Of a DNA stretch of 64,000 nt, positions 45,152-64,000 are shown piece by piece. The stretch is from the NCBI GenBank assembly GCA_024998625.1, contig JACOEL010000017.1:1-64000 (forward strand). The letters run 5' to 3'. A program made the position numbers and the translations under genes. This stretch comes from Nitrospira sp. Lineage in GTDB: Bacteria > Nitrospirota > Nitrospiria > Nitrospirales > Nitrospiraceae. The notes below the pieces were generated by a model. It worked only from the letters and a program-made list of their open reading frames with translations, did not search any database and was not told the DNA's origin. Numbering within the stretch: position 1 is the stretch's first letter; each line of letters opens with the position of its first letter.

Positions 45152-45153
45152 GC

Positions 45154-48100: not shown

Positions 48101-50478
48101 TCAGCCCGGCGCAGAGCCTGGTCGCGTTGGGCCGTGAATAGCGTCACCTCCTGCGCCAGCCGTTCAGCCCGCGTGAGGGTCGCGCGGATGTCGGCGAAGC
48201 GGTCGGTGCCGGTGAAGCTCGTGAGGGCGCGGAAGCGTTGGATGTAGCGGTCCAACCCGCGTTCGTGGAGACGGCGTTCGAATCGATACCCGAGCAGGGC
48301 GGTCAGAGACTGACCTTGGCGCACTCCGTCGAGCAGCCACTTGGCGCGATGGACCCGTTCTGATGAAAGGTCGACAGCAAAGGGCGAAGTGCCGGGTGCG
48401 CGATTCGATTCTTGCGACAGGTAGCCGCTTCGCAGCACCGCGGCGGCCGCCGCATGCCCAAGCGAAGGGGCGTGGACGAAGCCTTTGTTCTGTTCCGAGC
48501 GCGAGAGTGGTGCAGGGACACCGGCCGGAAGTGCCGGGACCGGTTGCAGCGGGGCCGCACGCCGGACCTGTTCCACCCAGCCGTAGGCGCCGAGCCTGAT
48601 GCCGGTGGGCGTGGCCTTCCGCATGACGGCCAGCCGCCTGGTGGCAAGGGATGTGCCCCAGGCATCGAGGCGATAGGTGAGCAGATCCATCACTTCCGCG
48701 AGCAGTTGCTGCCGAACCGGTTCAGGCAGGGTCGTCACTTCGTCCCAGGCCGGCTCGTGCGGAGTGGAGAGTGCGCGAGTCAGCAGCAGCGTCCGGAAGG
48801 CCTCGGTCAGCAGCCGTCGCGGAACGGGCGGCTGTTGAGTGGAGATCTCGGGAAATTCCCGCAAGATGTAACGGAAGGCGTTCGCTTCCTGCGCCAAGAG
48901 CACGACGGGGTTGGATTCCACGGTGGTCTGGAGGGCTTGTGCCGCCTGGCGGCGGCGCGTCAATCGTTGGGCGCGCCACCAGGTGGCCAGAGCCCTGTCC
49001 TGGTCCTGATCGGTCGTCGAGATCCAGCGGTCGAGCGCCGCCACCGGCAGCAGGCCGTAGGGTTGGCTGTCGACACGCAAGACCGGCAGTGGCCCGCGAG
49101 CACGGACGTACTTCGTGAAATGGTCGCGAAGCACGTCCGCGCCGGCTGCGCCGAGCAGTTGCCGCAAGAGCGGACTGTCGCAGAACGCGAGCAGGGCCGC
49201 CTGCATGAGGGAAGACCGGCGCTGTTCCGATCCGTCGGCCCCGCGGATATGCGCGAAGACGGAACTCGGCATGCCCAAGGCCTGCGCCAGCAGCTCGCCG
49301 TCGGACCCGGAGCGGATGAGCGAGGAACCCAGTTCGACGCCCATGCTGTCGTCGGCATCGCGCCCGGTTGAGCGATACCCGGCGGAGGCTTCCGTCGTGT
49401 TGTTTGTCGGCACCTGTTGCTCGACGAGGGCGAGGCTGCCGGTGTAATGGTGGGCATCGAACAATCGGACCAATCGGTCGGCCGTGGCCGGGGCGTCCCA
49501 TGAGGCCTTGAGGCCCAACACGACGATCCGATCGAATCCCGCCTTGGCGTCTTCCTCCGTGACGGGAATACGTAGCCCCATCCCGATGGATTCAGCCGTA
49601 TCAAAATCGGTGATCCACCGCATGCCTTCATCGACAGGCGGGAGGCCATTGCTGCCGACCGGGCCTGTGCTGCGCGGGTCCGGCCCGACCGCCACGGTTT
49701 CCGGGATTGCCTTGCCCCAGGCGGTGACACGTGCGGTATCGCCGCGATAACCGATGGCGACCCAGCGATCCGGGAGGACCTGCGTGTGGGGCGCGCGGGT
49801 CCAGCTGTCGTTGCGGCGAGTGACCGTTCCGGCTTGGGCAGGATCCAGCACATGGGCGATCCAGGCAGCGCGGGTCGTGCCGAATTGTTCGGTGAGTCGT
49901 TGCCAACCCTGCCTGATGTGCTCCTGCCGGTCCGTGCCTGCCGGGGTTACGGCGGAGACATGGGCCCAGAATTCCTTGCCGCGGCGTTCCTCTTCCTCCG
50001 TGAGGGCCGGTTCGTGGGTGTCGAGATGAATGTCGTCGGGATACACGCGGAGCAGGAGGTCGGTGCCCGGTCCCGTGCGTCTCGCCGCAAACCTGGTTTC
50101 CACCCGGACGGGAAACAGCAGCAGCGGATGCGTCGTGGCGACCGTGCCGCTGAGGCGATCCGTGCCAAGCAGTCGGGCCGTCGCGGCATCACGAGCGGTT
50201 CGATGTTCGTCGACCTGCGCCGACAGCGCGGCGACTTCGGCTTTCTTCCGCGTCACCGTTTCCTGCGTGGCTGTGATTTGTGCGTTCACCCGAGCCAACT
50301 CCGCCTGATACAGCGCCCGTTGCCTGATGAGCAGGGCAGCCCGCCGTTGCGCCGCCTGGGCCCTCGCGACGGCCCGATCGTGCGCCGCCTGCAATTGCCG
50401 GAGTTTGGTTGCCCATGCCCGGAGCAATGCCGGGGGCACCCGTTCGGGAATATCTGGTCCTTCAGAGATCGGTCTCAC
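45154..50478 (-). CDS. giant cluster protein, 1,774 residues, coiled coils and C-terminal beta domain
   Basis: 1,774 residues from a GTG at 50478, preceded by AAGGAAAGG; more upstream codons are open but lie on the coding sequence of the previous gene. An N-terminal coiled coil (about 15-110, Ala/Gln/Arg-rich) is followed by VETRFAARRTGPGTDLLLRV and YPDDIHLDTHEPALTEEEE (about 130-165) and a mixed domain. A second long coiled coil (about 700-880) and a helical region follow. The C-terminal beta-sandwich contains PGRWVRLEVPAAAVGLEGRI and NGMAFTLFDGMATWDRSGK, a jelly-roll-like binding domain. No signal peptide. Probably a structural or scaffold component; no characterised homolog is known to me. 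Confidence 0.72.
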   Translation of the reverse strand: MRPISEGPDIPERVPPALLRAWATKLRQLQAAHDRAVARAQAAQRRAALLIRQRALYQAELARVNAQITATQETVTRKKAEVAALSAQVDEHRTARDAATARLLGTDRLSGTVATTHPLLLFPVRVETRFAARRTGPGTDLLLRVYPDDIHLDTHEPALTEEEERRGKEFWAHVSAVTPAGTDRQEHIRQGWQRLTEQFGTTRAAWIAHVLDPAQAGTVTRRNDSWTRAPHTQVLPDRWVAIGYRGDTARVTAWGKAIPETVAVGPDPRSTGPVGSNGLPPVDEGMRWITDFDTAESIGMGLRIPVTEEDAKAGFDRIVVLGLKASWDAPATADRLVRLFDAHHYTGSLALVEQQVPTNNTTEASAGYRSTGRDADDSMGVELGSSLIRSGSDGELLAQALGMPSSVFAHIRGADGSEQRRSSLMQAALLAFCDSPLLRQLLGAAGADVLRDHFTKYVRARGPLPVLRVDSQPYGLLPVAALDRWISTTDQDQDRALATWWRAQRLTRRRQAAQALQTTVESNPVVLLAQEANAFRYILREFPEISTQQPPVPRRLLTEAFRTLLLTRALSTPHEPAWDEVTTLPEPVRQQLLAEVMDLLTYRLDAWGTSLATRRLAVMRKATPTGIRLGAYGWVEQVRRAAPLQPVPALPAGVPAPLSRSEQNKGFVHAPSLGHAAAAAVLRSGYLSQESNRAPGTSPFAVDLSSERVHRAKWLLDGVRQGQSLTALLGYRFERRLHERGLDRYIQRFRALTSFTGTDRFADIRATLTRAERLAQEVTLFTAQRDQALRRAEDARGLKAERERRAETYRAELGTIATLAQQAQAAQAQVTQAAQVLAQQQAAKPQGKVIQPTVRRYAVQLLEARDLDEWDNRVEQLTQAHATTLAQAAAAQQAVSARDGSRLLAERAQAKLLNAADPDSIPAAQQMAVGQETRAAELDRQILAKEGGQRGKAMADLMAARAALTTRLAAQWNEALKSLPAAAVVDGLALHRRWTASQQRQAPQSPWDVTTIPFGNATLGFPPPGSPDFTALVEALKALDDLVDSVGDSVVAESVYQLVQGNPLRSGATLEAIAAGEVPPPELDVIRTPRSGIGLTHRLCTLFPATDGTAPAGWPMMTAPSARAQAEPILNAWTATLLPNPAQVRCKADYVNQQDGQVYQTVESSLTSLGLAPLDAVYLAESTTRAQQAELEQRWRFVLQQTRPATVPPDALIRLQFGRDNGWSAEIVSVSEWCEVATTVRRLLSNARSLDGRDLSLPESPADSGLDHDEFAGRATRALQALTDARGKLNGLLPPPSSDDLTANLDEVRQALFSLANFGIPSAVPMDIGGAGPEARALLLTQARSVLLEAQRRLDRIAESDQDFVRAIATPEERRDHDLARLRIIFGQDFLALPRVTAANAAQLNETFAAGLSLQGQDPMAAVTWFQRAAYVRPGATRLNEAMLYGETVGSSALRFHVGQLPFQAQDRWVALPQAPDQPFPRGRLSLVAQLASAQPLRFEQPFCGLLIDEWVETVPSPVETTGLAFHYDQPNNAPPQALLLAVPTDRRTTWDLNSLEAVLHETMDLARLRAVAPDSGEELIWVEDQLPEGASPLGDGEGWNWVRMKPEPLSGRRAHQSAVAAGIHQHFFQGTKAAMFVSVGDRLFAHIYLDPARLPRQVMLQWHDGSWEHRAYWGENLIPWGTDNTVSRQYMGPLPPPGRWVRLEVPAAAVGLEGRIVNGMAFTLFDGMATWDRSGKRALQPVGSGEQDPSAPALFFTGGTLDFTGVIDPAIGA

Positions 50479-50504
50479 GCGGCTGATCCTTTCCTTAATG
50501 AAAC

Positions 50505-51314
50505 CTACGGCCCATCCTGTAAATGCGTGCCGACCTCGGCTTCGGCAGCCGCCAGCGCCTGCTGGGTCGCTGCCTGTTGCGCCTCCGCCTCCGGGATTTG
50601 TCTGGCGAGGTCGGCGAGCAGCGTCGCCAATTCGTTGCGTCTGGTGATCGCGCTTGCGAGGAGCGTCTCGGCGTCCTCCAGCTCGAATCGCGTCGTCAGA
50701 AGGGAATCTTCCAACGTCGCCGTGCGGGCCGACAGGTCTGCCGCCACCCGTTGCAGGGCGTCTCTCGCCAGCGGGTCGCGCGTGACCTCTGCATTCATGC
50801 GCTCGATCTCGGCCAGCGTCGCCTGCAGTTCCTGCCGGCGGGGTTGAAGGGCGGCGATCGCGGCCTGGGTGGCCTGCACCGCAGCGGTGGCCGCCGAAAC
50901 TTGAACATCTGCGGCCCGTACTTGCGCCTGGGCTTGCGCCACGCCCTGCTGTGCGACAGTCACCTTTGCGTGGGCCGCGGTTGCGGCGGTCTGAGCCTGG
51001 GTCAGTTGTTTTCGCAGTGCGGCGAGGCGTGCCCTCCAGGTGGCGGGGGGGATGCCTTGCGGTGGTTCGGACGCATCGAGCAGAGTCTGTTGCACCTCCG
51101 CAACCTGTGCGTCCGCGGCGGCGGCGGCTGCCTGCAGCGGAGGAATGCGCGCTTGGGCCTGCGTCACGCCGTTCTGTGCGGTGGTGCGCTGCGCCTGAGC
51201 CGCTGTCACCGCCTGCTGCTGGGTGGTGAGTTGGGTCGTCAACGTTGTCTGTTGCGCGGCCAAGGCCTGCAGGGCCGTCTGGAGTCGCGCAGTCTCTTGT
51301 TCCAAATAGGGCAT
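50505..51314 (-). CDS. Ala/Gln-rich coiled-coil protein
   Basis: 269 residues from the ATG at 51314; the longer frame extends into the 870-residue gene and is rejected. Nearly the whole length is heptad-like: LQTALQALAAQQTTLTTQLT then TQQQAVTAAQAQRTTAQNGV, with a short non-helical break (ASEPPQGIPPATWRARLAAL). It resembles a rigid rod or fibre protein, perhaps a tail-fibre-like or scaffold component. No signal peptide, no catalytic motif. It lies 20 bases after the 870-residue gene and 26 bases before the 1,774-residue gene, whose own start is also a coiled coil. Confidence 0.65.
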   Translation of the reverse strand: MPYLEQETARLQTALQALAAQQTTLTTQLTTQQQAVTAAQAQRTTAQNGVTQAQARIPPLQAAAAAADAQVAEVQQTLLDASEPPQGIPPATWRARLAALRKQLTQAQTAATAAHAKVTVAQQGVAQAQAQVRAADVQVSAATAAVQATQAAIAALQPRRQELQATLAEIERMNAEVTRDPLARDALQRVAADLSARTATLEDSLLTTRFELEDAETLLASAITRRNELATLLADLARQIPEAEAQQAATQQALAAAEAEVGTHLQDGP

Positions 51315-51334
51315 GATCTCGTCTCTTTCCGCCG

Positions 51335-53947
51335 CTACTGCCGGCCCGGCAGCCAGGTTCTCGCATGGACCGCCACGCGGAATGGCGGTTGTCTGGTGAT
51401 GGTGGCCATATGCGCTGAGTTTCTCCCCCAGGGAATCTGATCGACGACCGCATTGTTCAACAGGCCGTCGATCGGCACATACACGATCTGTTTCAGCGCG
51501 GCTTCGTCCTGCGCCAGGTGTCCCCACGTCAGGTCGCGCCAGTGGGCGGGGGTGCCGCCATAGGTCGTGGCGACGTCCATGCCGAATCGCGGTTCCGTCG
51601 GTTGCTCCTGCAGCACGAAGAACCAGCCCGGGTGTCCTCCGGCTTTGTTGTCGGCTCCGCGAACGTCCGCCTCGGTCAGCGGAAATCCGAGCATGGTGAT
51701 GTCCGGTGATTGCGTCGCGCGGAAAATCGGATACCGTTCCGTCGTGCCCAGCTCACGCCTGGTGCCGTCCGCAGACCAGACGCTCTCCAGGGCATAGACC
51801 ATGGCGCGTGGGTAACGCCGCAGGAGGTCGCCGCGAATGAGGAGCACCATCTGGCCGACCGCCGAGCCCCGCGCACTGTGAGAGCCGAGGCGGCTGTCCG
51901 CCGCCCAGGAGGTGATCCGCGTGATGTCGAAACGAGCCTCGCGCTCTGCATCGGTGGCGGGCAGTTCGTCGCCGCCGGCATCCCAGAATTGCCGGAAATA
52001 GGTGCCGCGCTGATCGGTCGGAAACCCGCGCCAGAGGAGTTCGCGGCTCATCTCGTGGTTCAGTCCGACCATGTAGGCCTCGATCAACTCCGGATTAGTC
52101 TTGAGGAGCGCAATCGTGTTCGAGGGCACCTGGTCCATGCCGGGCAGCAACAGGTCCGGTGCGTAGTCGCGCAATGGTTCGTACATCGGCTGAGGGAAAC
52201 TCGGCGCGAAGGTCGTCAGTTCCGTATGCTCGACGGTGGGTATCGTCTTTTTCACCGCGGCCAACACCGCCTCCTTCGGGGCCAGGCGTCGCAGCACCTC
52301 CACCTTGAGCTCAGACCATTCGCGCAGCGCCGGCGCCTGCCGCTGCTTGGTCGCGACGGAAAATTGCATGAGCGGGCGAAACGCCTGGCCGGCCGCCGAG
52401 GCGGGCGACGTGGCAGGGAGCCGGAGCGCGTCGAGTTTGGCGGCATGCGACGCGATTGGACCATGGGCGCGGGTCAGCCGGCGAAAAGCGCCGGTCACGG
52501 CCGGATGGCCGGACAACAGGTTGTTGGCGGCAGTCTGCGGCGTCGTCGGGGACGTGGCGATGCCCGTCAACCCTCGCAGCGCGGGCCCCGTGAGTTGCAG
52601 CAGTCCGGCCGGGTCGAGCGCGGCGAAGTGTTTCTTCGAGAGACTGTCGCCGACGGCCTCCGCCAGCTGCGCGCGCTTGAGCCGCTGTCGATCTCGCCGT
52701 TCCTGTTCGAATTGATCCCAGGCCGAGGCCATCAACGGCTCCTGCTCGTGTTGGATCACCGTCGTGCCGATACCGGCGGCGATGCGGTGGCGCGGATCCA
52801 GATTCAGATCGCGGAACCAGTGCGGCGGTTGATCTGCGGGCGGCAGGCTGTCACGGTCTACGTACCATTGCCCATAGAGCGGCGGGCCGAGGAGGGCGGG
52901 GGCTCCGGTCGTGCCGGCCATCGCTGCCGGCGCGTTGAGGATAGCGCCGAGGGCCAGTTGGAACGTCTTGCGCGGTTGGTCCGGCCAGGTACGCGGTTGA
53001 GTCTCGGGAGTCAGAAGGGCTCCACCCAAATCCAACAGGCTGCCCGGCGCGCCAGGCGGCAACGTCGGCATGCCCCAGCCGGGAGTTCGGATGTCCACCG
53101 GCCGCAAGCCCACCGTGGACGGCAGGGGCTGGGCCTTCAATCGGCGTGCGAGCGATTCGAAGTCTCCCGCGAGGCCGGTTCGAAACTCCCACTGGAAAAA
53201 AACCGGCAGCGTGACCGGTCCAGCCGCGGCGTTCTTCACCCAAGCCGGTTTTAAGGCCTGTTCATCCTCCGGCGTGATCGGCTCGCCCAGCCCCGCTTTC
53301 CTCCCCACGTCGTAGGTCGGCACGAGGCAGGCGTAGTAGGCGGTATTGGGATCGAGGCGGCGCGGGGCCAGCAGCCGGGAGAGCGTCCGTTCGGGATGGT
53401 CGTGAAGAAGTTTCTGCAGCGTCGCGCGTGGTGAGGGATCGGGCGTCGAGCGTTGTCCCGCCACGATCTGGGCATGCGCCCAGGCCCAAGACTGGTCGAG
53501 GTCGGGCAGGTCTTCAATGGCGCAGGTGATCGCCGGCAAGGGCCGCTGCGGATTGGTCTTGAGCGTGGCCCGTTCCTTCGGGACGACGATCAAGCAGATC
53601 CATGGCCGGAGTCGTCGCGCGCTGTCGGCCGCCGCCGGGGTGAACAGCCAGGGGAAGTCGGGGCGATCGAATTCGATGGCCGGAAAATAATTCGGCTCGA
53701 AGTCGGTCATGTGGGCATGGGGCTCCGTGCGAATGATCTCGCGCGCGTCCAGGCCGGTAATGTCGCCGGGGCCATAGAGTTGCACGTTGACGTCGATGGG
53801 CGCCCGGTCGTTCACTCGGAGACGGACGGGGGCGGCAAGGCGTCCCGCCGTGGCCGGACTGGAAGCGCCGGGTCCGGAGAGGCCCGCGACGAGTCCTTGG
53901 CGAAGCCAGGAGTAGAATCGATAGGTGGCTGCGGTCGGTTCAGGCAT
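51335..53947 (-). CDS. large cluster protein, 870 residues, unknown function
   Basis: 870 residues with no signal peptide or membrane segment. Opens AATYRFYSWLRQGLVAGLSG, then a beta-rich region with PVRLRVNDRAPIDVNVQLYG and the block EPHAHMTDFEPNYFPAIEFD then RPDFPWLFTPAAADSARRLR. A helical middle and a C-terminal part follow, with GFPLTEADVRGADNKAGGHP and PGWFFVLQEQPTEPRFGMDV. No enzymatic motif recognised. It ends RTWLPGRQ. It follows the first DUF6603 gene (gap 20 bases) and precedes the coiled-coil gene (gap 20 bases). Confidence 0.7.
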   Translation of the reverse strand: MPEPTAATYRFYSWLRQGLVAGLSGPGASSPATAGRLAAPVRLRVNDRAPIDVNVQLYGPGDITGLDAREIIRTEPHAHMTDFEPNYFPAIEFDRPDFPWLFTPAAADSARRLRPWICLIVVPKERATLKTNPQRPLPAITCAIEDLPDLDQSWAWAHAQIVAGQRSTPDPSPRATLQKLLHDHPERTLSRLLAPRRLDPNTAYYACLVPTYDVGRKAGLGEPITPEDEQALKPAWVKNAAAGPVTLPVFFQWEFRTGLAGDFESLARRLKAQPLPSTVGLRPVDIRTPGWGMPTLPPGAPGSLLDLGGALLTPETQPRTWPDQPRKTFQLALGAILNAPAAMAGTTGAPALLGPPLYGQWYVDRDSLPPADQPPHWFRDLNLDPRHRIAAGIGTTVIQHEQEPLMASAWDQFEQERRDRQRLKRAQLAEAVGDSLSKKHFAALDPAGLLQLTGPALRGLTGIATSPTTPQTAANNLLSGHPAVTGAFRRLTRAHGPIASHAAKLDALRLPATSPASAAGQAFRPLMQFSVATKQRQAPALREWSELKVEVLRRLAPKEAVLAAVKKTIPTVEHTELTTFAPSFPQPMYEPLRDYAPDLLLPGMDQVPSNTIALLKTNPELIEAYMVGLNHEMSRELLWRGFPTDQRGTYFRQFWDAGGDELPATDAEREARFDITRITSWAADSRLGSHSARGSAVGQMVLLIRGDLLRRYPRAMVYALESVWSADGTRRELGTTERYPIFRATQSPDITMLGFPLTEADVRGADNKAGGHPGWFFVLQEQPTEPRFGMDVATTYGGTPAHWRDLTWGHLAQDEAALKQIVYVPIDGLLNNAVVDQIPWGRNSAHMATITRQPPFRVAVHARTWLPGRQ

Positions 53948-53967
53948 GGTGTGTTATCCCATTTGAA

Positions 53968-56900
53968 TTACGTCGTGACTGCTGCGTTCCCCCGTCGCCG
54001 TCTGCGCGCCGGGGCCTGGCCGGCGGCGCCGAAGGGGGCCACCCGGGCCAGCACCGCCGCCGAGAGCACATAGCCCGGCTTGGGCCGCTCCGGCGGCCGT
54101 GTCGGATCAATCAAGAGCGTCTCATAGGCAATCGGCGCCGCGAGGCCTGTCTCGTCGTCCACCGCGAGATCGTCGGCCGCCACCGTGAGGCCGCCGTCGA
54201 GCGGGACAAACGCCGGTTGTGCCAACTGCTCATCCTCCCGCAGGTCTTCAAACTGCGCCAGGGCAAAGGGCTCTTGGACCGGCGTCGTCCGCCAGGGCTG
54301 CGCACCGGTCCGATCCGTCACTGAGACCCGGACCGTCGTGGGCCCGCCGACCAGCGGCGCGGTGCCCAGCTTCGTGATCTGTCTGTTGAGCGGCGCGATC
54401 CGTTCGCGCAGTGTCAGTTCCGCCCAGGGATGCACGCGCAGGCCGTTAGTCGGCTGGGCGGTCTCTCTGATGGTCACGACCGGGCTGCTGCTCCGTGGGA
54501 CGGCCCCAGTCCAATTGCGCCGGTCGGCCAGAGCCGCCGCGATCAGCCCCACCACATCGACCGCCGCCGGCAGCGGTGGCGCCGTCCTGCTCCCGAACGT
54601 CCGCGAGAAGGACACTGACACCGAGAAGAACAGGATCTTGATCGAGGCCTTGCCCTCCACCTGCCAGGGCGTGGGACCGGCCAAGCGTCCCTTGAAGGAG
54701 ACGCCCACCAGCAGCCGTCCACGATAGCGCAGTGCCAAGGCCGCACCCACGTCGACCTCAAAGGCTAACGGCGCCAACTGAATAATGGCATCGAAGCCGA
54801 GCATCCCATCGAAGCTGAAGCCACCCCCCGCCGCATGCAGATCCACCCGGGCGCCGAACTGGACCGTATTGGAGGTGACTGCCAGATAGGCCTGGCAGCG
54901 TAACTGGAGCGAGTCCCCATCGGCCAGCTGCAGCGCCAGCCGTTGTAACGCCGGAAGCCCTGGTGGTGGCGCAAACCGCGGGTGGAACCCGCCGATCGCC
55001 AAGATGAATTGTGGCTGACGCCCCCAGCCCGCACGGAGCGCCATATCGCCGGTCAGGGTGAACTGGAGAATGCGCGAATCATAGAGCGTCGCATCCAACG
55101 AGACCGTCTCGGCACTCACATCCAACACACCCAAGGCGTCCATGCGAATCTGCACGAGCGGATGGCTCTGGTTCGGTAACAGGACTTGCAGGCGGCCCAA
55201 GACGACCACGCGAACCGGCGAGGGCAATTCAACGAGCAGGGCCAGGTCGAGGGTGAGCAAGGTCGGCGTGCCCCAGCGTAATTGCACCATCGGCCCGAGC
55301 ACATGGCGGCCCGCGGTCGGGGGGAAGACGCGGCGCAGGTCGCTGAAGATTTGCGGGGCATTCCGCAAGGGATCGGGCGGAAATAACACCGAGTTCAAGG
55401 TGCCGGTCTTGAGGCCCTCGCGCAACACGTCGGTGCGGACGGTCCGGTGCAGCGCCACGAGGCCACCGATGCCAGTGAGGGTGAAGCCCAAGCCGAGCGG
55501 GATCGGCGCAAAGCCTTCGGCGGTCAGGATCACGATCAAGGAATAGCCCTTGCTACCGTCCGGCAGCTTGGTGGTGAGCAGCCCCAGCGCCTTAATGGCG
55601 AGGGTCTCGGCCAGCTCCAGTTGCAGCATGCCGCTGTATTCGGCCCGCTGGGGCTCGAAGCCCAAATACCCGCCGCCGGTCACGCCCGCCGTCGCAATCG
55701 CCAGGCCGATGCCGGTCGGAGGTTTGAAGCCGATGGCGAGGTCGAGTGGACCCAGGTTCCCGCCGCCTGGGGGGAGCTGGAGGGTCCCAGAGAATCCCAC
55801 CTGCTCGATGGTCGCCGTGACCGGGCCAAGTTTGATGGCGGCGTTGGTGGCAGCCACGATGTCGATGCCTTGGCCGTTGCCGCTGGCGGTCCGGACTGCG
55901 AGTCGCAGCAACTCGATCGAAATCGCATTGAACAGGGTGACGTGCAGGGGTAGGGTCGCTTCGAATCCCACCCCGCCCTGCAGCGAGAGCCCACGGCGGA
56001 ACGACCATTCACCGGCGAGATCGAAGGGAACGGCAAGACCATCCTTGGGGAACACCTGCGCGAGAAACCCATCACCTTTGGAGAAATCAATCACCACCTC
56101 GCCGTGCTCGACGGCGAAGGCAATCGCCGGGTCCACTGTGGCGCGAGCCGGTGCGGCCGGGTCGACATGCAGGTCCAGTTTCACGGAAGCCCGGAGGCGC
56201 TGCATGGCCAAGCGAGAGCCTCCCGCCGAGCCGATCACGACAAAAGGTTCGGCGTCGCCTGTGCGGACGAACCGAGCCCCCACGGTGACGTCCATCGCGC
56301 TTCCTGCCGGCAACTGGAAGTCGAGATCCAAGGGCGGACGGATGGAAGCGGTCAGATCGCTGCTGACGCGGACGACCGTATCGAAGGTCACTTGCCACGC
56401 GCTCTCGGGGATGGTGTCGCTGCGATTGATCGAGGTCGGCGCGCGCAACGTGACGTCGAGGCCGGGAGGGGAGAACGTCGGGTTGACCTCGGCGTTGAAT
56501 CCGAAGGCTTCCAGCAGCGCCGGCTCACCGGCCGGGTGCAGGATCTCGGCAGGGATGCCGAATTTCTCGTTCAATAGCCTCTGCAACATCCTGAACAACG
56601 TCATGCCGTCGAACGAAGGCGCGCCCCAGCCATAGACTTCGCGCAACAATCCCATCGGGTCGGTGAAGAGCTGCAGCAGGCGATTGAGATGCAGGGTTTT
56701 CCGGACATAGGGACCTTGTAGCGATCCCTCCGGCAGGCCTGGCTCGTCGACGACCTCGATCGCGCCGGTGCCGAGCAGCAGCAGGGCCACCTGAGGGAAG
56801 CGGACTTCGAGGTAGTCGGCCACCAACCGGTGCAGGAGCCGTTCCGGGAACAGGAGAGCAAAGGCGGCGAGTTCAGTCTTCTGTTGAGGCGAGAGGGCTG

Positions 56901-57249
56901 CGTCGTTGCCGAGTGTTTGCAGGGCCCGCACCACTCCCTCAATGCCTTGGAGCGTGGCGCGTAGTTGTTGCAACAAGGCGGCGACCGTGGTGGCGATGGC
57001 TGCCCGATCGTCCTGCGTCACGGCTTGGGCCAAGTCGTTGATGAGTAGGTCGAGTTCTGTGGCAGCCATGGCCGTGGCGGTGAGCGCATCGGTCAGCGCG
57101 GTCGTGTCCGGCTCCATCTCGAAGACGCGCAGGCCCAACCAAGGCAGTACTTCGTCCAGCGTACCGGTTTCGGCGCGCTGCACCAGCGGTTCGAAGACCC
57201 GCGCAAATTCACCGGCCAATTGTTCGAGCGATCCGACGGCTGTACTCAT
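53968..57249 (-). CDS. DUF6603-type protein A, 1,093 residues
   Basis: 1,093 residues. The N-terminal about 100 residues are helical (GSLEQLAGEFARVFEPLVQR). From about residue 110 on it is a very long series of amphipathic beta segments (for example YSLIVILTAEGFAPIPLGLG, LTLDLALLVELPSPVRVVVL, LRYRGRLLVGVSFKGRL), with no transmembrane helix and no signal peptide. This is the hallmark I associate with the DUF6603 family; the family assignment is from memory. Residues about 508-1088 are encoded by DNA almost identical to that of the second copy (59689-63012). Its ATG overlaps the protease stop (ATGA). Role unknown; an extended beta-groove or barrel that holds lipid or forms a surface layer is a guess. 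Confidence 0.75.
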   Translation of the reverse strand: MSTAVGSLEQLAGEFARVFEPLVQRAETGTLDEVLPWLGLRVFEMEPDTTALTDALTATAMAATELDLLINDLAQAVTQDDRAAIATTVAALLQQLRATLQGIEGVVRALQTLGNDAALSPQQKTELAAFALLFPERLLHRLVADYLEVRFPQVALLLLGTGAIEVVDEPGLPEGSLQGPYVRKTLHLNRLLQLFTDPMGLLREVYGWGAPSFDGMTLFRMLQRLLNEKFGIPAEILHPAGEPALLEAFGFNAEVNPTFSPPGLDVTLRAPTSINRSDTIPESAWQVTFDTVVRVSSDLTASIRPPLDLDFQLPAGSAMDVTVGARFVRTGDAEPFVVIGSAGGSRLAMQRLRASVKLDLHVDPAAPARATVDPAIAFAVEHGEVVIDFSKGDGFLAQVFPKDGLAVPFDLAGEWSFRRGLSLQGGVGFEATLPLHVTLFNAISIELLRLAVRTASGNGQGIDIVAATNAAIKLGPVTATIEQVGFSGTLQLPPGGGNLGPLDLAIGFKPPTGIGLAIATAGVTGGGYLGFEPQRAEYSGMLQLELAETLAIKALGLLTTKLPDGSKGYSLIVILTAEGFAPIPLGLGFTLTGIGGLVALHRTVRTDVLREGLKTGTLNSVLFPPDPLRNAPQIFSDLRRVFPPTAGRHVLGPMVQLRWGTPTLLTLDLALLVELPSPVRVVVLGRLQVLLPNQSHPLVQIRMDALGVLDVSAETVSLDATLYDSRILQFTLTGDMALRAGWGRQPQFILAIGGFHPRFAPPPGLPALQRLALQLADGDSLQLRCQAYLAVTSNTVQFGARVDLHAAGGGFSFDGMLGFDAIIQLAPLAFEVDVGAALALRYRGRLLVGVSFKGRLAGPTPWQVEGKASIKILFFSVSVSFSRTFGSRTAPPLPAAVDVVGLIAAALADRRNWTGAVPRSSSPVVTIRETAQPTNGLRVHPWAELTLRERIAPLNRQITKLGTAPLVGGPTTVRVSVTDRTGAQPWRTTPVQEPFALAQFEDLREDEQLAQPAFVPLDGGLTVAADDLAVDDETGLAAPIAYETLLIDPTRPPERPKPGYVLSAAVLARVAPFGAAGQAPARRRRRGNAAVTT
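53984..55730. repeat. 1,747-bp near-identical direct repeat, copy 1
   Basis: Matches 59711-61457 at a constant offset of 5,727 bases. I found one mismatch, T at 54001 against C at 59728; the boundaries are sharp (TTGAAGC then divergence at the inner end). It encodes the C-terminal about 580 residues of DUF6603 protein A. Confidence 0.92.
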
Positions 57250-59675
57250 GGTTGCGACATGGTCCGTGTTTCAATCGGGGATGTGAAACTCTCCGTCAGC
57301 AGCATGGACACAAAGAAGTGGTACTGGTCGAGGCTCTGCCGCAATCTTGGACTACCCTGTCTGGCCAGCAGGTCCAGGCAACGGGCGAGGTATCGTGAGG
57401 CCGATTCTTTGTCGATCGGCAGGGGACCGTCGGTGGCTCTCGTGCCGTGGATGAGGCGCCGCAGGAGCGCCGGTCCCGCCGCGCGATGCCACATGGTTGC
57501 GATGCGCCGGTTGCTGTTGATCAGACGCCGGGCTTCGCTGAAGTGTCGGCTGATGGCAGCGGCGACGTGTTCTCCTTCCGGATAGTCCTTGAGCCGCTCA
57601 CGGAGCGTACGGAGCCAGGAGGTGAGCGGTGCAGCGTTCCCGGTGAAGGTCGACGCCCTCTGCTCGCGCTGGAACGACTCATCCAAGCCGGACGGCGGAT
57701 AGATCCGAGGTATGCCACCGCCTCCACCTCCACCGCCGCCACCCCCGGCTGCTGCCGCGCGCACGGCATTGATGGCAGTTTGGATGTTGAGCTTTCCCGC
57801 GCCCCAGGTTGCGTCCCATCCGCCGGCCGGCCGGTCTCGCGCCGTCGCCTGCAGGTGGCGGACGATGTCGGCTCTGGTGAGTCGCGGATTTTCCTCCAGG
57901 AGCAGCGCGATGGCCCCAGCCACATGCGGAGCAGCCATGCTGGTGCCGGTCATGTCCTCATACAGACAGCAACAGGCATCGGGGCAACAATCGCAACAGC
58001 GTCCGCGCAGGTTGGCGACATCGGCTTTGGCGGATGTGATTTCTAGTCCCGGCGCCGCGATGTCCGGTTTCTGGTTGGTCGCGGCACCCCTCGCGACGGG
58101 GCCCCGGCTGGAGGAAGACACGATCCCGGTCGAAGGCCAGCAATCGCAGCGGCTCGTGCGTGAGGCGTGGTTCGCGACTGTGATGACTTGGGATGCGGTG
58201 CCGGGAATGCTCAGTGTCGCATCGAGACTCGCCCGCACCTTTCCGTCGTCCGGAGTTTTCGGCGGCAGAAACCAAGGCGTGTTTGTGCCGCGTTCGATCC
58301 AGCAGTGAAAATCGACGGGCGTGGCATTCGGGTTGGCGAGAGTCAGTTTCCAAGGGCCGTGGATGATGTTTCCACGCCGGGAGCGCGCGATGGTGATGCG
58401 AAAGTTATTATTGCGGTCGTGCTCGCCGTTGATGGTCCCATCGATCGAGACGCGAGTTTGCCGGTTGGCGGCAGCCGCGGGATTGGCGATAAACGGCGGG
58501 GCGGCGGCGTTGGGCGGAAGGTCGGTGCCATGGTTGACAACGGCACTGACGGCGCCGGTTGGAGCGGTCACGGTCAGGTTGAGGGTGCTGGCCCGGTCGT
58601 ACCAGAGGTCCAGTAGCGCGTCGGACCTCCGTCCCTTCGGCATCTCGAATTCAACTTCCAGATTGCCGTTCCCCGGCACGCGGCCTTGCACGTGTCGCAA
58701 CATGCCGCCTTCGTTGCCGGCCGATTTGACGACGATCTGGGGATGGTGCAGGAAGTCGCCGGTTTCGACATGGGCATCGATCGCCAGCTCGACGGCGCTC
58801 GTGCCGTCATGAGGCCCCAGGTTGTCGCCTTGGCTGATGTTGATGACCTTCGGTTTATCGATACTGCCGAGAAAACTGAAAATAAAGTCGATGGCTTCGA
58901 TGAGGCGTTGGTTTTCGCCGATCTCCTCGTCGTCGGTATAGTCGTACCGAACGACGAGGAGTTCGGCCTCCGGTGCCACGCCCACATAGGTTTGGCTGAC
59001 GTGGCAGCAGGTCGGAGGTCTGCCGTTGCCTGCGGCAATGCCCGCGACATGGGTGCCGTGGCCCTCCCGGTTGTTGCTTGCATCGACATCCTTGGTGCGT
59101 ACCCTGGCTCGGCCCTTCAGCGCTTGGGTGATTTGGTCTTGGTCGTAGACGACGCCGATATTGTTGGGTCCCCTCGTGTCGCCCGCCTGGAAGGGCAACA
59201 TGTGATCCCAGATCGCGAGAATCCTCGATTTCCCGTTCGCATCGACGAACGAGCCGTGCCGCCAGTCGATGCCGCTGTCGATGATCCCGACGACGACGCC
59301 CTTTCCTGTGCGCGAGAGGGGGCCGGTGTGTACGGCGGTGGCGCGGATTTCTTTCAAACTGAAGTTGAGTTCGCGATGCATGCGGTGCGGCCCCTCCACG
59401 GTCGTGACGTGGGGGATGGCTGCGAGATCGTCGAGGCGGTCGAAAGCGATGGTGCCGGTGGCGACGCTGTAGCTCTTGCGAGGATGACGGACGAGCGTGC
59501 GCTGCACGAAGCCGACGGCGGTCAGATCAGCTACATTGCCGGTGAAGGCGACGATGACGCCCACCTGCTCACTCTTTGCGCGGGAGCGTGTTTTCGGCAC
59601 GGCTGCGGCTGCCGCACCGGCGGCCTGCTTGGTACGAAGTTTCGAGCGCAGTCCAGGATCGAGTTTTTTGTTCAT
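57246..59675 (-). CDS. S8 (subtilisin-like) serine protease with Cys-rich loop and helical C-terminal domain
   Basis: 809 residues. The N-terminal about 110 residues look like a propeptide-type domain (EQVGVIVAFTGNVADLTAVG). The catalytic triad is intact: Asp133 (VGIIDSGIDWRH), His206 (EGHGTHVAGIAAG) and Ser579 (GTSMAAPHVAGA), with the oxyanion Asn in KSAGNEGG near 321. A beta-rich insert separates His and Ser regions. Just before the Ser sits a Cys-rich loop, CCDCCPDACCC at 560-570 (seven Cys in eleven residues); other Cys pairs are TCCH near 223 and CDCW near 510. A tract of eleven Gly (57715-57747 in DNA) leads to a helical C-terminal domain of about 140 residues. No signal peptide. It is 13 bases after DUF6603 B. 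Confidence 0.88.
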   Translation of the reverse strand: MNKKLDPGLRSKLRTKQAAGAAAAAVPKTRSRAKSEQVGVIVAFTGNVADLTAVGFVQRTLVRHPRKSYSVATGTIAFDRLDDLAAIPHVTTVEGPHRMHRELNFSLKEIRATAVHTGPLSRTGKGVVVGIIDSGIDWRHGSFVDANGKSRILAIWDHMLPFQAGDTRGPNNIGVVYDQDQITQALKGRARVRTKDVDASNNREGHGTHVAGIAAGNGRPPTCCHVSQTYVGVAPEAELLVVRYDYTDDEEIGENQRLIEAIDFIFSFLGSIDKPKVINISQGDNLGPHDGTSAVELAIDAHVETGDFLHHPQIVVKSAGNEGGMLRHVQGRVPGNGNLEVEFEMPKGRRSDALLDLWYDRASTLNLTVTAPTGAVSAVVNHGTDLPPNAAAPPFIANPAAAANRQTRVSIDGTINGEHDRNNNFRITIARSRRGNIIHGPWKLTLANPNATPVDFHCWIERGTNTPWFLPPKTPDDGKVRASLDATLSIPGTASQVITVANHASRTSRCDCWPSTGIVSSSSRGPVARGAATNQKPDIAAPGLEITSAKADVANLRGRCCDCCPDACCCLYEDMTGTSMAAPHVAGAIALLLEENPRLTRADIVRHLQATARDRPAGGWDATWGAGKLNIQTAINAVRAAAAGGGGGGGGGGGIPRIYPPSGLDESFQREQRASTFTGNAAPLTSWLRTLRERLKDYPEGEHVAAAISRHFSEARRLINSNRRIATMWHRAAGPALLRRLIHGTRATDGPLPIDKESASRYLARCLDLLARQGSPRLRQSLDQYHFFVSMLLTESFTSPIETRTMSQP

Positions 59676-59688
59676 CGAGCCATCCTCG

Positions 59689-62600
59689 TCACCGTTCTAC
59701 CAACGCGACCGCGTTCCCCCGTCGCCGCCTGCGCGCCGGGGCCTGGCCGGCGGCGCCGAAGGGGGCCACCCGGGCCAGCACCGCCGCCGAGAGCACATAG
59801 CCCGGCTTGGGCCGCTCCGGCGGCCGTGTCGGATCAATCAAGAGCGTCTCATAGGCAATCGGCGCCGCGAGGCCTGTCTCGTCGTCCACCGCGAGATCGT
59901 CGGCCGCCACCGTGAGGCCGCCGTCGAGCGGGACAAACGCCGGTTGTGCCAACTGCTCATCCTCCCGCAGGTCTTCAAACTGCGCCAGGGCAAAGGGCTC
60001 TTGGACCGGCGTCGTCCGCCAGGGCTGCGCACCGGTCCGATCCGTCACTGAGACCCGGACCGTCGTGGGCCCGCCGACCAGCGGCGCGGTGCCCAGCTTC
60101 GTGATCTGTCTGTTGAGCGGCGCGATCCGTTCGCGCAGTGTCAGTTCCGCCCAGGGATGCACGCGCAGGCCGTTAGTCGGCTGGGCGGTCTCTCTGATGG
60201 TCACGACCGGGCTGCTGCTCCGTGGGACGGCCCCAGTCCAATTGCGCCGGTCGGCCAGAGCCGCCGCGATCAGCCCCACCACATCGACCGCCGCCGGCAG
60301 CGGTGGCGCCGTCCTGCTCCCGAACGTCCGCGAGAAGGACACTGACACCGAGAAGAACAGGATCTTGATCGAGGCCTTGCCCTCCACCTGCCAGGGCGTG
60401 GGACCGGCCAAGCGTCCCTTGAAGGAGACGCCCACCAGCAGCCGTCCACGATAGCGCAGTGCCAAGGCCGCACCCACGTCGACCTCAAAGGCTAACGGCG
60501 CCAACTGAATAATGGCATCGAAGCCGAGCATCCCATCGAAGCTGAAGCCACCCCCCGCCGCATGCAGATCCACCCGGGCGCCGAACTGGACCGTATTGGA
60601 GGTGACTGCCAGATAGGCCTGGCAGCGTAACTGGAGCGAGTCCCCATCGGCCAGCTGCAGCGCCAGCCGTTGTAACGCCGGAAGCCCTGGTGGTGGCGCA
60701 AACCGCGGGTGGAACCCGCCGATCGCCAAGATGAATTGTGGCTGACGCCCCCAGCCCGCACGGAGCGCCATATCGCCGGTCAGGGTGAACTGGAGAATGC
60801 GCGAATCATAGAGCGTCGCATCCAACGAGACCGTCTCGGCACTCACATCCAACACACCCAAGGCGTCCATGCGAATCTGCACGAGCGGATGGCTCTGGTT
60901 CGGTAACAGGACTTGCAGGCGGCCCAAGACGACCACGCGAACCGGCGAGGGCAATTCAACGAGCAGGGCCAGGTCGAGGGTGAGCAAGGTCGGCGTGCCC
61001 CAGCGTAATTGCACCATCGGCCCGAGCACATGGCGGCCCGCGGTCGGGGGGAAGACGCGGCGCAGGTCGCTGAAGATTTGCGGGGCATTCCGCAAGGGAT
61101 CGGGCGGAAATAACACCGAGTTCAAGGTGCCGGTCTTGAGGCCCTCGCGCAACACGTCGGTGCGGACGGTCCGGTGCAGCGCCACGAGGCCACCGATGCC
61201 AGTGAGGGTGAAGCCCAAGCCGAGCGGGATCGGCGCAAAGCCTTCGGCGGTCAGGATCACGATCAAGGAATAGCCCTTGCTACCGTCCGGCAGCTTGGTG
61301 GTGAGCAGCCCCAGCGCCTTAATGGCGAGGGTCTCGGCCAGCTCCAGTTGCAGCATGCCGCTGTATTCGGCCCGCTGGGGCTCGAAGCCCAAATACCCGC
61401 CGCCGGTCACGCCCGCCGTCGCAATCGCCAGGCCGATGCCGGTCGGAGGTTTGAAGCGCGGCGACAGGCCGAAGAGGCCAAGGTTGCCTTCCTTGAAAGA
61501 CAGATCGACGGTGACGCCGATCCGTTCGACGATCGCCGTGACTGGGCCAAGCACTATGCGGGCGTTCACACTGGTTTCCGTGTCGATGCCCTCTTCGCCC
61601 ACGTCGATGCCGATGTGGGCCGCATCCAGCTTCACGGGGCCGACGGCCTGCGGCAAGGGCAATGCGACGTGGAGTCCGCCGCTGCCGGAGAACGACAGTC
61701 CTTCTCTGCTGCTCCAGCGCAATGTGAGATCGAACGGGGCCTGGACAGACTCGCGCCCGACCGTGCCTTGGATGAAGTTGTCTGCCTCTGCGAGCGAGAG
61801 GTCGAAGCGGAGCCCCAGCAGCGCCAATTCCACGAATGTGTCCATGCTGGTGGCCGAGGAGGCATCGAGACCACCCACGACGAAAAATTGCTGATACCGC
61901 AGGGCCGAGCCTCCCGGTAGGCGGACCAACGGCTTGAGTTCGCCGGTCGGTTGGCCATGCCGCAGGCCCAGCGTGAAGCGACCGTTGAGAGCATCGGCGA
62001 GCCCGGCTCCCTTGCGCAGGGTGAGGTCCTGGTCCGGCCTGAGGATGACGGCCAATCGCTTCAACACCTCCACGTTGCCGGACCATTCGATGCGGGTGTC
62101 TTCCAAACGGGGAAAGGGGACCGTGCCCTCCGCGCGTCCTTGAATGATGGGGGCGAGGCCGAGTCCGGCATCACTCGCGCCCGCCGATGTGGCAGCGGCG
62201 CCGAAGAGCGAGAGGCCCAACCGCACCCCGAATGCGGAGCCGCGTTCCTCGTGCAGGAAGGTGATGAGTTGCGGCGGTAGGTTGGAGTTTGTTTCGGCTT
62301 GTCCCAGCCAGCCCTCTTGCGCCTGCGGACTCAGGGGTTGGATACGACTCCGTAGCCCCAGCGTTTGCAGCAGCTGGCTCAGTCTGGTGAGGAAAGTCAT
62401 CGATTGGAAGTCGGGTGTGTGCCAGCCGTAGGCTTCTGTAAAGAGCTGGTCCGGGCTCGTGACCGCCACCTTGAAGAGGTGATAGTTCACCGTGGCGCGT
62501 ACATGTTCCACCTGAAATTTCGTCGGGTCGGCGGCGTAGTAAGGATAGTCGATGATGTTCAGCAGGTGCAGGACGGCGTAACTGAGCGGCGAGGCCTGCG

Positions 62601-63012
62601 CCAAGAAATTCGCGGCGAGAAAATCGAACAGCCGTCTTGGGAGTTCCTTATGGATCTGCGTGCGATCGACGTAGTCGCCGAAGGACGCCAGTCTGGCGGG
62701 CAGGGTCTGTGCCAAGTCGTGAATCTGTCGCGTGAGGGTTTCGATCGCGAGCGCGAGATCGGCGATGCGGCCTGCCATGGCCAGGTCGTCGTTCCATTCG
62801 GCATCGGACGCCCCGATGACCGCGTCGAGCTTGGTCAGGAAATTGCCGAGGTTGAGTGCGGCTAGACCGATGTCGTCGAGGCCGGGCGGCAGATCCCAGC
62901 CCAGCAGTTTCAGAAACGCGCGGGCCTCCTCCACATCGCCCTGCACGATATCGAGGTACGACAGGAGCCGCCCGATCCCGGCGGTGGCGTTCTGAACTAG
63001 ATGATCGGCCAC
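59689..63012 (-). CDS. DUF6603-type protein B, 1,107 residues
   Basis: 1,107 residues from a GTG at 63012 with AAGGA upstream; it overlaps the end of the PLD-like gene by 16 bases. The N-terminal helical part (DIVQGDVEEARAFLKLLGWD) and about 500 residues of beta-rich sequence are only distantly like protein A. Both share the landmark pattern YGW..P.F..MT....L..LL (FTEAYGWHTPDFQSMTFLTR here, REVYGWGAPSFDGMTLFRML in A). From about residue 520 to the end the DNA is virtually identical to A. The last residues differ (GNAVALVER against GNAAVTT). No signal peptide or transmembrane helix. Function unknown. Confidence 0.75.
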   Translation of the reverse strand: MADHLVQNATAGIGRLLSYLDIVQGDVEEARAFLKLLGWDLPPGLDDIGLAALNLGNFLTKLDAVIGASDAEWNDDLAMAGRIADLALAIETLTRQIHDLAQTLPARLASFGDYVDRTQIHKELPRRLFDFLAANFLAQASPLSYAVLHLLNIIDYPYYAADPTKFQVEHVRATVNYHLFKVAVTSPDQLFTEAYGWHTPDFQSMTFLTRLSQLLQTLGLRSRIQPLSPQAQEGWLGQAETNSNLPPQLITFLHEERGSAFGVRLGLSLFGAAATSAGASDAGLGLAPIIQGRAEGTVPFPRLEDTRIEWSGNVEVLKRLAVILRPDQDLTLRKGAGLADALNGRFTLGLRHGQPTGELKPLVRLPGGSALRYQQFFVVGGLDASSATSMDTFVELALLGLRFDLSLAEADNFIQGTVGRESVQAPFDLTLRWSSREGLSFSGSGGLHVALPLPQAVGPVKLDAAHIGIDVGEEGIDTETSVNARIVLGPVTAIVERIGVTVDLSFKEGNLGLFGLSPRFKPPTGIGLAIATAGVTGGGYLGFEPQRAEYSGMLQLELAETLAIKALGLLTTKLPDGSKGYSLIVILTAEGFAPIPLGLGFTLTGIGGLVALHRTVRTDVLREGLKTGTLNSVLFPPDPLRNAPQIFSDLRRVFPPTAGRHVLGPMVQLRWGTPTLLTLDLALLVELPSPVRVVVLGRLQVLLPNQSHPLVQIRMDALGVLDVSAETVSLDATLYDSRILQFTLTGDMALRAGWGRQPQFILAIGGFHPRFAPPPGLPALQRLALQLADGDSLQLRCQAYLAVTSNTVQFGARVDLHAAGGGFSFDGMLGFDAIIQLAPLAFEVDVGAALALRYRGRLLVGVSFKGRLAGPTPWQVEGKASIKILFFSVSVSFSRTFGSRTAPPLPAAVDVVGLIAAALADRRNWTGAVPRSSSPVVTIRETAQPTNGLRVHPWAELTLRERIAPLNRQITKLGTAPLVGGPTTVRVSVTDRTGAQPWRTTPVQEPFALAQFEDLREDEQLAQPAFVPLDGGLTVAADDLAVDDETGLAAPIAYETLLIDPTRPPERPKPGYVLSAAVLARVAPFGAAGQAPARRRRRGNAVALVER
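59711..61457. repeat. 1,747-bp near-identical direct repeat, copy 2
   Basis: Partner of 53984-55730, same orientation, offset 5,727 bases, one mismatch noted. It encodes the C-terminal about 580 residues of DUF6603 protein B. Recombination between the copies would delete the protease gene and fuse the N-terminus of B to the C-terminus of A. Confidence 0.92.
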
Positions 63013-64000
63013 GGGAGCAGGTCCTTCTTGTCGTCAACCTTGCAGGTTTTGAAATCGAACTTCTGCGCCTTGTTGCGCAGGGTGGAAGTGCGGATCTTGA
63101 GCGCGGTCAGATAGTCCTTCGCGTTGGTCTCCGGCACCCAGGGCAGCAGGTGCGGCGCATGGTCGGCGGACGGCGCCTGTTCGTTCTTGATCGCCTCCAC
63201 ATGCTGTGTGGCGGCGGCGTCCCACTCGGCGACCCACCTCATGGAAGTCGGGTCGGTCGGTAAGGTCTTCAGGTGATCCGGCAGCGAGGCAAGACCTAGG
63301 TGTTCCTGCCACAGTTCATGGCGCAGGGCCCGGACGACGCCGTTCTCCGGCAGGCCGGCGATACCGCTGTACATCACCAGGTTCAGTTCCACGCTGCGCG
63401 AGGGCTGGCGTGAGCGGCTGGGGAGAGCGTGCCGGGCGGTGCGCGTGTAAATGTCTTTCACCAGTTGGGGAATGTCGGCCACGTCGCCCAACGTTTCCCG
63501 GATGGTCTCCAGCGTTTCCTTGAAGTCGAAGATCAGTTTGTAGGCGACGAAGAGCAGGATGAGGAGCGTCTTGAGGTCGAACAGGATCTGCTTGAAGACG
63601 AAGAAAAAGAGATACCAGAACAGCTCCCAAAGAAATTTGCCCGGATCGTTGGTGAGCTTTGCCTTTTCGATCGCGCGGTCGAGGATGGAGCCGGTGATGA
63701 TCAGGCCGATCTCGTGGTAGTTCATCGAAGTGCCGTCGAGGTTTGCGCTGCCGGCTGTGGCCCACACGTCGTCGATGATGGCGACTTTGCTGTGCACGTA
63801 CACCGGCATCACGTCGTAGCGCCGCGGATTCCCCGCGCCGCCGCTGCCTGCTTTCTCCGATCGGCTCCAGAGGGTGTAGACGCCCAGATGATGTCCACCT
63901 GCTTTGGCGGCGCTGCGGAGTTGGTTGACGTTGTCGATCTGGCGATCCGGGTAGCCCGGCAGGTCGGGGCGCAGGTTCAGGACCAGGATGATGTGCAGGC
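62997..64000 (-). CDS. phospholipase D-like protein with membrane hairpin, partial
   Basis: Reads off the window edge; about 334 C-terminal residues are visible. An HKD motif, VHSKVAIIDDVWATAGSANL (coded near 63790), with NLDGTSMNYHEIGL following, marks the PLD/cardiolipin-synthase superfamily; an upstream half motif would lie outside the window. After it comes a hydrophobic region with two likely membrane spans (FLWELFWYLFFFVFKQILFD and LKTLLILLFVAYKLIFDFK), then a soluble C-terminal domain with Trp and His (VAEWDAAATQHVEAIKN, HAPHLLPWVPETNAKD) ending WPII. PLD enzymes cleave phosphodiesters in lipids or nucleic acids. First visible gene of the cluster; its stop overlaps the next start. Confidence 0.8.
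   Translation of the reverse strand, partial: LHIILVLNLRPDLPGYPDRQIDNVNQLRSAAKAGGHHLGVYTLWSRSEKAGSGGAGNPRRYDVMPVYVHSKVAIIDDVWATAGSANLDGTSMNYHEIGLIITGSILDRAIEKAKLTNDPGKFLWELFWYLFFFVFKQILFDLKTLLILLFVAYKLIFDFKETLETIRETLGDVADIPQLVKDIYTRTARHALPSRSRQPSRSVELNLVMYSGIAGLPENGVVRALRHELWQEHLGLASLPDHLKTLPTDPTSMRWVAEWDAAATQHVEAIKNEQAPSADHAPHLLPWVPETNAKDYLTALKIRTSTLRNKAQKFDFKTCKVDDKKDLLPWPII

Follow-up and report, generated by a model that had tools for sequence, protein, structure and literature searches.

In the type VI secretion system (T6SS) of Vibrio cholerae, every type of effector has been described as having a specific putative adaptor of its own (Tap-1 and the aux-2 adaptors). Tap-1 is tied functionally to its cargo effector through its 3' end, and homologous recombination swaps the effector modules, tap-1 having once been predicted to be a hotspot (PMC5361080). 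Concerted evolution of bacterial paralogues by gene conversion is known from repeats and PE_PGRS pairs of Mycobacterium tuberculosis (PMC12046097, PMC1762029). For the protein family DUF6603, the Pfam entry (PF20248) gives no function, and the literature searched held no paper mentioning DUF6603 and nothing on the system described here; the head/tail modularity and the enzyme link reported below are likewise absent from it. Here, we report on a DUF6603 locus in a stretch of 64,000 nucleotides from Nitrospira sp. (GenBank assembly GCA_024998625.1, contig JACOEL010000017.1, positions 1 to 64,000 of the forward strand), referred to as the window, whose genome is a draft of 37 contigs. Two DUF6603 genes in the window share a C-terminal module, the tail, that is kept alike within genomes by gene conversion, and they differ in their N-terminal parts, the heads, which are inherited together with the gene for an upstream enzyme and precede a constant set of core genes.

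Positions 53984-55730 equal positions 59711-61457 over 1,747 bp at a fixed offset of 5,727, with a single mismatch (54001 T, 59728 C), exactly as an earlier note on this DNA had claimed. The mismatch is silent (AGA and AGG, both arginine), and the C-terminal module of about 580 amino acids is therefore identical in both proteins. Outside the repeat, identity drops to background within a few bases at both edges, the left edge lying about 65 amino acids inside the Pfam DUF6603 match and the right edge a few codons short of the stop. The genome holds two copies only. Chance origin of a 1.7-kb match at more than 99.9% identity is impossible, and the repeat is real. The assignment of both genes to DUF6603, made in the same note, agrees with PF20248 matches at E about 1e-130 (scores of 435 and 434 bits, the cut-off being 27), and the divergence that it saw in the N-terminal halves amounts to about 26% protein identity between the heads. 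It had further stated that the repeats flank the protease gene; this is correct for the S8 gene and can be refined in that head 2 is flanked as well. On the minus strand, the genes run in the order phospholipase D (PLD) enzyme, DUF6603 gene 1, S8 subtilase, DUF6603 gene 2 and then the core genes U870, coiled-coil-like protein, U2099 and U665:

59711-61457, minus strand: tail copy 1, constant C-terminal module of DUF6603 gene 1; equals 53984-55730 bar one silent base
53984-55730, minus strand: tail copy 2, constant C-terminal module of DUF6603 gene 2; from the repeat comparison
61458-63012, minus strand: head 1, type N1 (N1 clade), about 518 amino acids, occurs with PLD enzyme; 26% identity to head 2
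55731-57249, minus strand: head 2, type N2 (N2 clade), about 506 amino acids, occurs with S8 protease; low-confidence model of helices and a beta meander
59689-63012, minus strand: DUF6603 gene 1, 1107 amino acids, GTG start; PF20248 E 3.5e-130
53968-57249, minus strand: DUF6603 gene 2, 1093 amino acids; PF20248 E 7.8e-130
57246-59675, minus strand: enzyme 2, S8 subtilase, 809 amino acids, overlaps the start of head 2; PF00082 E 2.8e-43, D/H/S motifs present
62997-64000, minus strand: enzyme 1, phospholipase D-like, 752 amino acids, overlaps the start of head 1; PLDc_2 E 5.3e-13 on the fuller sequence, HKD motif
51335-53947, minus strand: core protein U870, after the last tail; 64-97% identity in relatives
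50505-51314, minus strand: core coiled-coil-like protein, 269 amino acids; homologues 66-91% identical in relatives
45154-50478, minus strand: core protein U2099, about 1774 amino acids; homologous in relatives, start set by comparison
43442-45154, minus strand: core protein U665, about 570 amino acids; homologous in related loci

The near-identity of the tails recurs in relatives. Across 12 Nitrospira genomes with two cassettes, each consisting of enzyme gene, head and tail, the two tails of a genome are 86.4-100% identical at the DNA level, and their synonymous divergence (dS) is 0.008-0.11 in nine of the 12 genomes, including 0.010 in the genome of the window, and 0.31-0.55 in the other three, as compared with a median of 0.66 and a minimum of 0.33 between genomes. 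Between genomes, dS is the same for tails of the same slot (0.659) and of crossed slots (0.664), the tails therefore having no memory of their slot. In most species the two copies pair by genome in the tail tree, the exceptions being G019 and the unresolved G015/G026. On its left side, identity has its edge at the F codon of the motif FKPPTG, within 0-3 nucleotides, in 10 of 13 pairs, and 36 bases (two pairs) or 297 bases (one pair) further upstream in the remainder; the right edge lies just ahead of the stop. Several genomes show lower similarity over the initial tens of tail bases than over the middle of the tail, as conversion tracts ending inside the homologous block would produce. We regard it as virtually certain that the tails undergo concerted evolution by gene conversion. 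The gene-conversion reading of the earlier note is thereby extended from one pair to many species, and C-terminal halves as diverged as the N-terminal ones, named there as the finding that would speak against it, were looked for in relatives and not found, the tails being 86-100% identical within genomes.

Simpler accounts of the repeat fail on the same data. A repeat copied or collapsed by the assembly would be conceivable in a 37-contig draft, all the more so as the contigs of many other drafts end precisely at the edges of the tail: in other species assembled from short reads, contigs with heads run on for 16 to 120 tail residues before they end, and contigs with the core start within the last part of the tail. 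Such breaks are, on the other hand, what near-identical true repeats do to assemblies, the two copies in the window are preceded by different heads and followed by different genes, and both copies are in place in the single-contig genomes G004, G007, G023 (Candidatus Nitrospira defluvii, FP929003.1) and G029, with tail-tail identities of 100% over 1,735 bp in G004, 97% in G007 and 99.6% in G023; an artefact is thus very improbable. Hardly any weight can be given to one recent conversion or duplication in a single strain, devoid of wider meaning: the low dS of 0.010 in the genome of the window would suit such an event, but homogenised tails accompany different heads in 12 separately sequenced species and have diverged between species, so that the relatives already refute it. 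The same verdict applies to strong purifying selection on the protein without recombination. Tail proteins are indeed conserved between species (82-94% identity), but synonymous sites are near-identical within genomes and diverged between them, which refutes this explanation as well. All three accounts were rejected on the single-contig genomes and the dS data.

With regard to the heads, those of the two-cassette Nitrospira genomes form six clades in the head tree, reshuffled across species and each occurring with its own type of enzyme: N1 with PLD, N2 with S8, N2' with another S8, N3 with a PhoD-like phosphatase, N4 with an M64 peptidase and N5 with U970, an uncharacterised protein of 970 amino acids. 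Complete two-cassette loci combine PLD with S8, PhoD with S8, PLD with M64, U970 with M64 and PLD with S8'. The pairing was quantified for 51 DUF6603 genes whose upstream partner is known, drawn from Nitrospirota, which dominate the set, haloarchaea, Streptomyces and Paraburkholderia; enzyme families were assigned from how similar the upstream genes are in sequence. For 42 of 45 testable genes the nearest head belonged to the same enzyme family (16/19 and 12/15 after redundancy removal), a match equalled in none of 5000 shuffles, whereas the nearest tail did so at chance level (9/45, 1/19 and 1/15). When segments were considered separately, the two halves of the head tracked the enzyme in 17/19 and 15/19 cases and two parts of the tail in 2/19 each. 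Enzyme and head can also be followed across individual loci: the M64-N4 pairs of G001 and G019 are 72% identical in the enzyme and 65% in the head but only 45% in the tail, the reverse being seen between SF_Bin53 and G019 (M64 enzyme 35%, head 54%, tail 90%); enzyme-head pairs of Nitrospira type sit on foreign tails in G001 and G014, and pairs of PhoD type recur in haloarchaea and Streptomyces. We are confident that enzyme and head constitute a unit of inheritance. The variable-head/constant-tail arrangement of which the earlier note was reminded is borne out, heads being swapped between species and tails kept alike within a genome.

Joint inheritance could be a matter of linkage only, adjacency moving the head with the enzyme and the tail serving as the only long homology, without any enzyme-specific function of the head. 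The genes for enzyme and head have a few bases in common, and the shared sequence that homologous recombination needs is offered just by the tails and the outer flanks. Yet the pairing holds where tails are 35-45% identical and hardly able to recombine by homology, the PhoD heads of Nitrospira, Salinigranum and Streptomyces longwoodensis are closer to each other than to other Nitrospira heads, Nitrospira-type pairs are found on the foreign tails mentioned above, and random illegitimate joins would split enzyme from head too, which is hardly seen. We therefore consider linkage alone rather unlikely. Still less probable is a phase-variable switch in which a 5.7-kb circle loops out and re-enters, toggling enzyme 2 within a strain. 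Identical 1.7-kb direct repeats do lie on both sides of enzyme 2 and head 2, and loci with one cassette joined directly to the same core exist in G132 (PLD), G275 (PhoD) and G292 (M64), G132 being another genus whose tail is 93% identical to that of the window. However, no inverted repeats of at least 40 bp occur in 44000-64000, profile scans revealed no recombinase among cassette and core genes, both DUF6603 genes are intact, and the known one-cassette loci differ in flanks or genus. The loop-out switch that the earlier note had envisaged is accordingly weak: the two genes stand in one operon-like run, and no switching intermediate was seen. It had proposed to look in relatives for deletion or chimeric versions, and one-cassette and reshuffled loci do exist. 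The former have the structure that a tail-tail crossover would leave, but their flanks differ, which makes them no more than candidate deletion products; belonging to different genera or having different flanks, they indicate that one cassette suffices and do not demonstrate switching.

Other arrangements were observed in two single-contig genomes. G029, a sister genus, carries two separate arrays at wider spacing (G029:C1:1204000-1223900), Amidase_2 with DUF6603 and PhoD with DUF6603, which share 2.56 kb at 99.6% identity extending into the start of U870. In G009, the locus is in two parts (G009:C1:1374000-1392000 and G009:C1:2362000-2380000), the PhoD enzyme, N3 head and first 100 amino acids of the tail lying about 1 Mb from U870 and U2099, and U870 lacks its first 53 amino acids.

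We propose that the locus consists of two interchangeable cassettes ahead of an invariant core operon and that DUF6603 would act as a carrier, the head fitting the enzyme encoded upstream and the tail being the same for every enzyme because it must fit the same core. The comparisons show that gene conversion between the two direct repeats repeatedly makes the tails of one genome identical and that enzyme and head move jointly, units being cut and joined in the tail while the core stays constant. The tail would also serve as a homology block for exchange, loss and gain of cassettes. In this model, crossing over between tails would naturally yield, and also use, a circle of 5.7 kb that holds enzyme 2 and head 2 with a single tail and could insert at any sufficiently similar tail. 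A carrier role of DUF6603, with one matching head per enzyme and a constant tail shared with the core, appears likely to us. For its parts, we lean slightly towards the head being an enzyme-specific docking part, and the tail would dock the core. The loaded complex may serve in delivery, display or degradation.

Several points speak against this proposal. Docking of head to enzyme and of tail to core is an inference, and neighbouring enzyme and head genes would co-travel by linkage whenever the tail is the site of crossing over. Enzyme types are restricted by slot, slot 1 holding PLD, PhoD or U970, never a protease, and slot 2 always a protease. Some heads are nearest to the head of another enzyme; for the Amidase_2 head of G029, the closest head is the PhoD one of G029 itself (42%). 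Structure prediction with AlphaFold2 (gene 2 with 16 relatives) reached a mean predicted local distance difference test score (pLDDT) of 45.6 and U870 one of 30.7, models too weak to allow a docking surface to be named. The gene 2 model has N-terminal helices at residues 5-165 (pLDDT about 75) followed by a beta meander into the tail, which itself is unresolved, probably because the tail alignment has little diversity. Sequence searches against solved structures yielded nothing of use. Matches to transmembrane beta barrels (BamA, VDAC, LptD and others; Foldseek and VIA-align) were not trusted, Foldseek E values exceeding 0.01 and root-mean-square deviations being mostly above 8; an outer-membrane barrel also fits poorly with occurrence in haloarchaea.

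The broader reading, in which DUF6603 would serve bacteria and archaea generally as an enzyme-loading platform with a hydrolase-specific head, a universal tail and a dedicated core, is put forward tentatively and as a whole, at slightly below even chances: heads would exist for PLD, PhoD, S8, M64, amidase, trypsin-like and other enzymes, exchange of enzyme-head units would fit in new enzymes, and gene conversion would keep the tails of a cell compatible with its core. If it applies, U870, the coiled-coil protein, U2099 and U665 would form a dedicated complex. A nameless family of bacteria and haloarchaea becomes a testable system, in which the enzyme partner is predictable from the head sequence and the junction of head and tail is placed to the exact codon. 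It also offers an unusually clean natural case of gene conversion keeping one protein half common and the other diverse, repeated in a dozen species of globally important nitrite oxidisers. On plasmids of haloarchaea, Streptomyces, Rhizobium and others, DUF6603 genes are followed by large genes like U870, U2099 and U665, and one Streptomyces copy adjoins tyrosine recombinases. G027, G026 and G081 carry a second, more distant type of DUF6603 operon, in which a gene of 987-1449 amino acids precedes shared genes c10 and c19.

Concerning the individual genes, both DUF6603 genes begin within the end of their enzyme gene, and the gap between DUF6603 gene 1 and enzyme 2 is 13 bases, in which no immunity gene fits. 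The PLD gene continues past the window to about 65255; upstream of it, outside the window, follows a predicted lipoprotein of about 160 amino acids (about 65405-65896 on G000:C13), and one is predicted in the same position in most two-cassette Nitrospira loci. Hydrolases make up most of the identified enzyme partners, and those that were checked have their catalytic motifs. A simple hydropathy test revealed no obvious classical signal peptide in the Nitrospira enzymes; those of slot 1 (PLD, PhoD, U970) have an internal transmembrane-like hydrophobic stretch in common, and in slot 2 M64 has none and S8 at most a marginal one. Such hydropathy is compatible with an unconventional route of delivery or display and equally with an intracellular role. 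As to the core, U870 gave no Pfam, NCBIfam, PHROG or PADLOC match and U665 no family match in profile scans, and the mechanical open reading frame of 2099 amino acids for U2099 begins too early.

Among candidate systems, anti-phage defence models matched the subtilase alone (generic subtilase/IetS) and neither DUF6603 nor core proteins, and phage records gave no match. Shufflon-like or invertible variation was rejected, the inverted repeats and recombinases sought above being absent from the ranges scanned. A link to contractile injection was likewise rejected: sheath matches are frequent in Nitrospira, with none in the DUF6603-bearing G029 and G050. The window's own genome has no match to PF05943, the T6SS sheath protein VipB; on another contig and not linked to the DUF6603 locus, a 676-amino-acid frame has a weak, sub-cut-off phage-sheath-like match (G000:C9:345840-346058) and is possibly part of a contractile tail-like system.

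Compared with paralogue gene conversion as known, the DUF6603 genes likewise keep homologous tracts alike within a genome, but in many species homogenisation ends at one conserved mid-gene codon, and the other half stays different and tied to the enzyme. Polymorphic toxins of the Rhs and contact-dependent inhibition (CDI) types resemble DUF6603 in having one constant and one variable half and recombination in or near the constant one; in DUF6603, the orientation is reversed, the constant half being C-terminal, and the variable half has no recognised toxin domain and is paired with a separate enzyme gene. Profile scans found no Rhs/YD repeats or CdiA-type domains in the two DUF6603 proteins. 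From T6SS adaptors, DUF6603 differs in that the Pfam scan gave only PF20248 and no DUF4123 for both proteins, the variable part lies at the N-terminus, immunity genes were not identified at the locus (small open reading frames not being assayed) and the family extends to haloarchaea and Streptomyces. Although not a member of that system, the DUF6603 locus would, by analogy, come closest to the T6SS, where an adaptor is matched to its cargo and recombination exchanges the modules.

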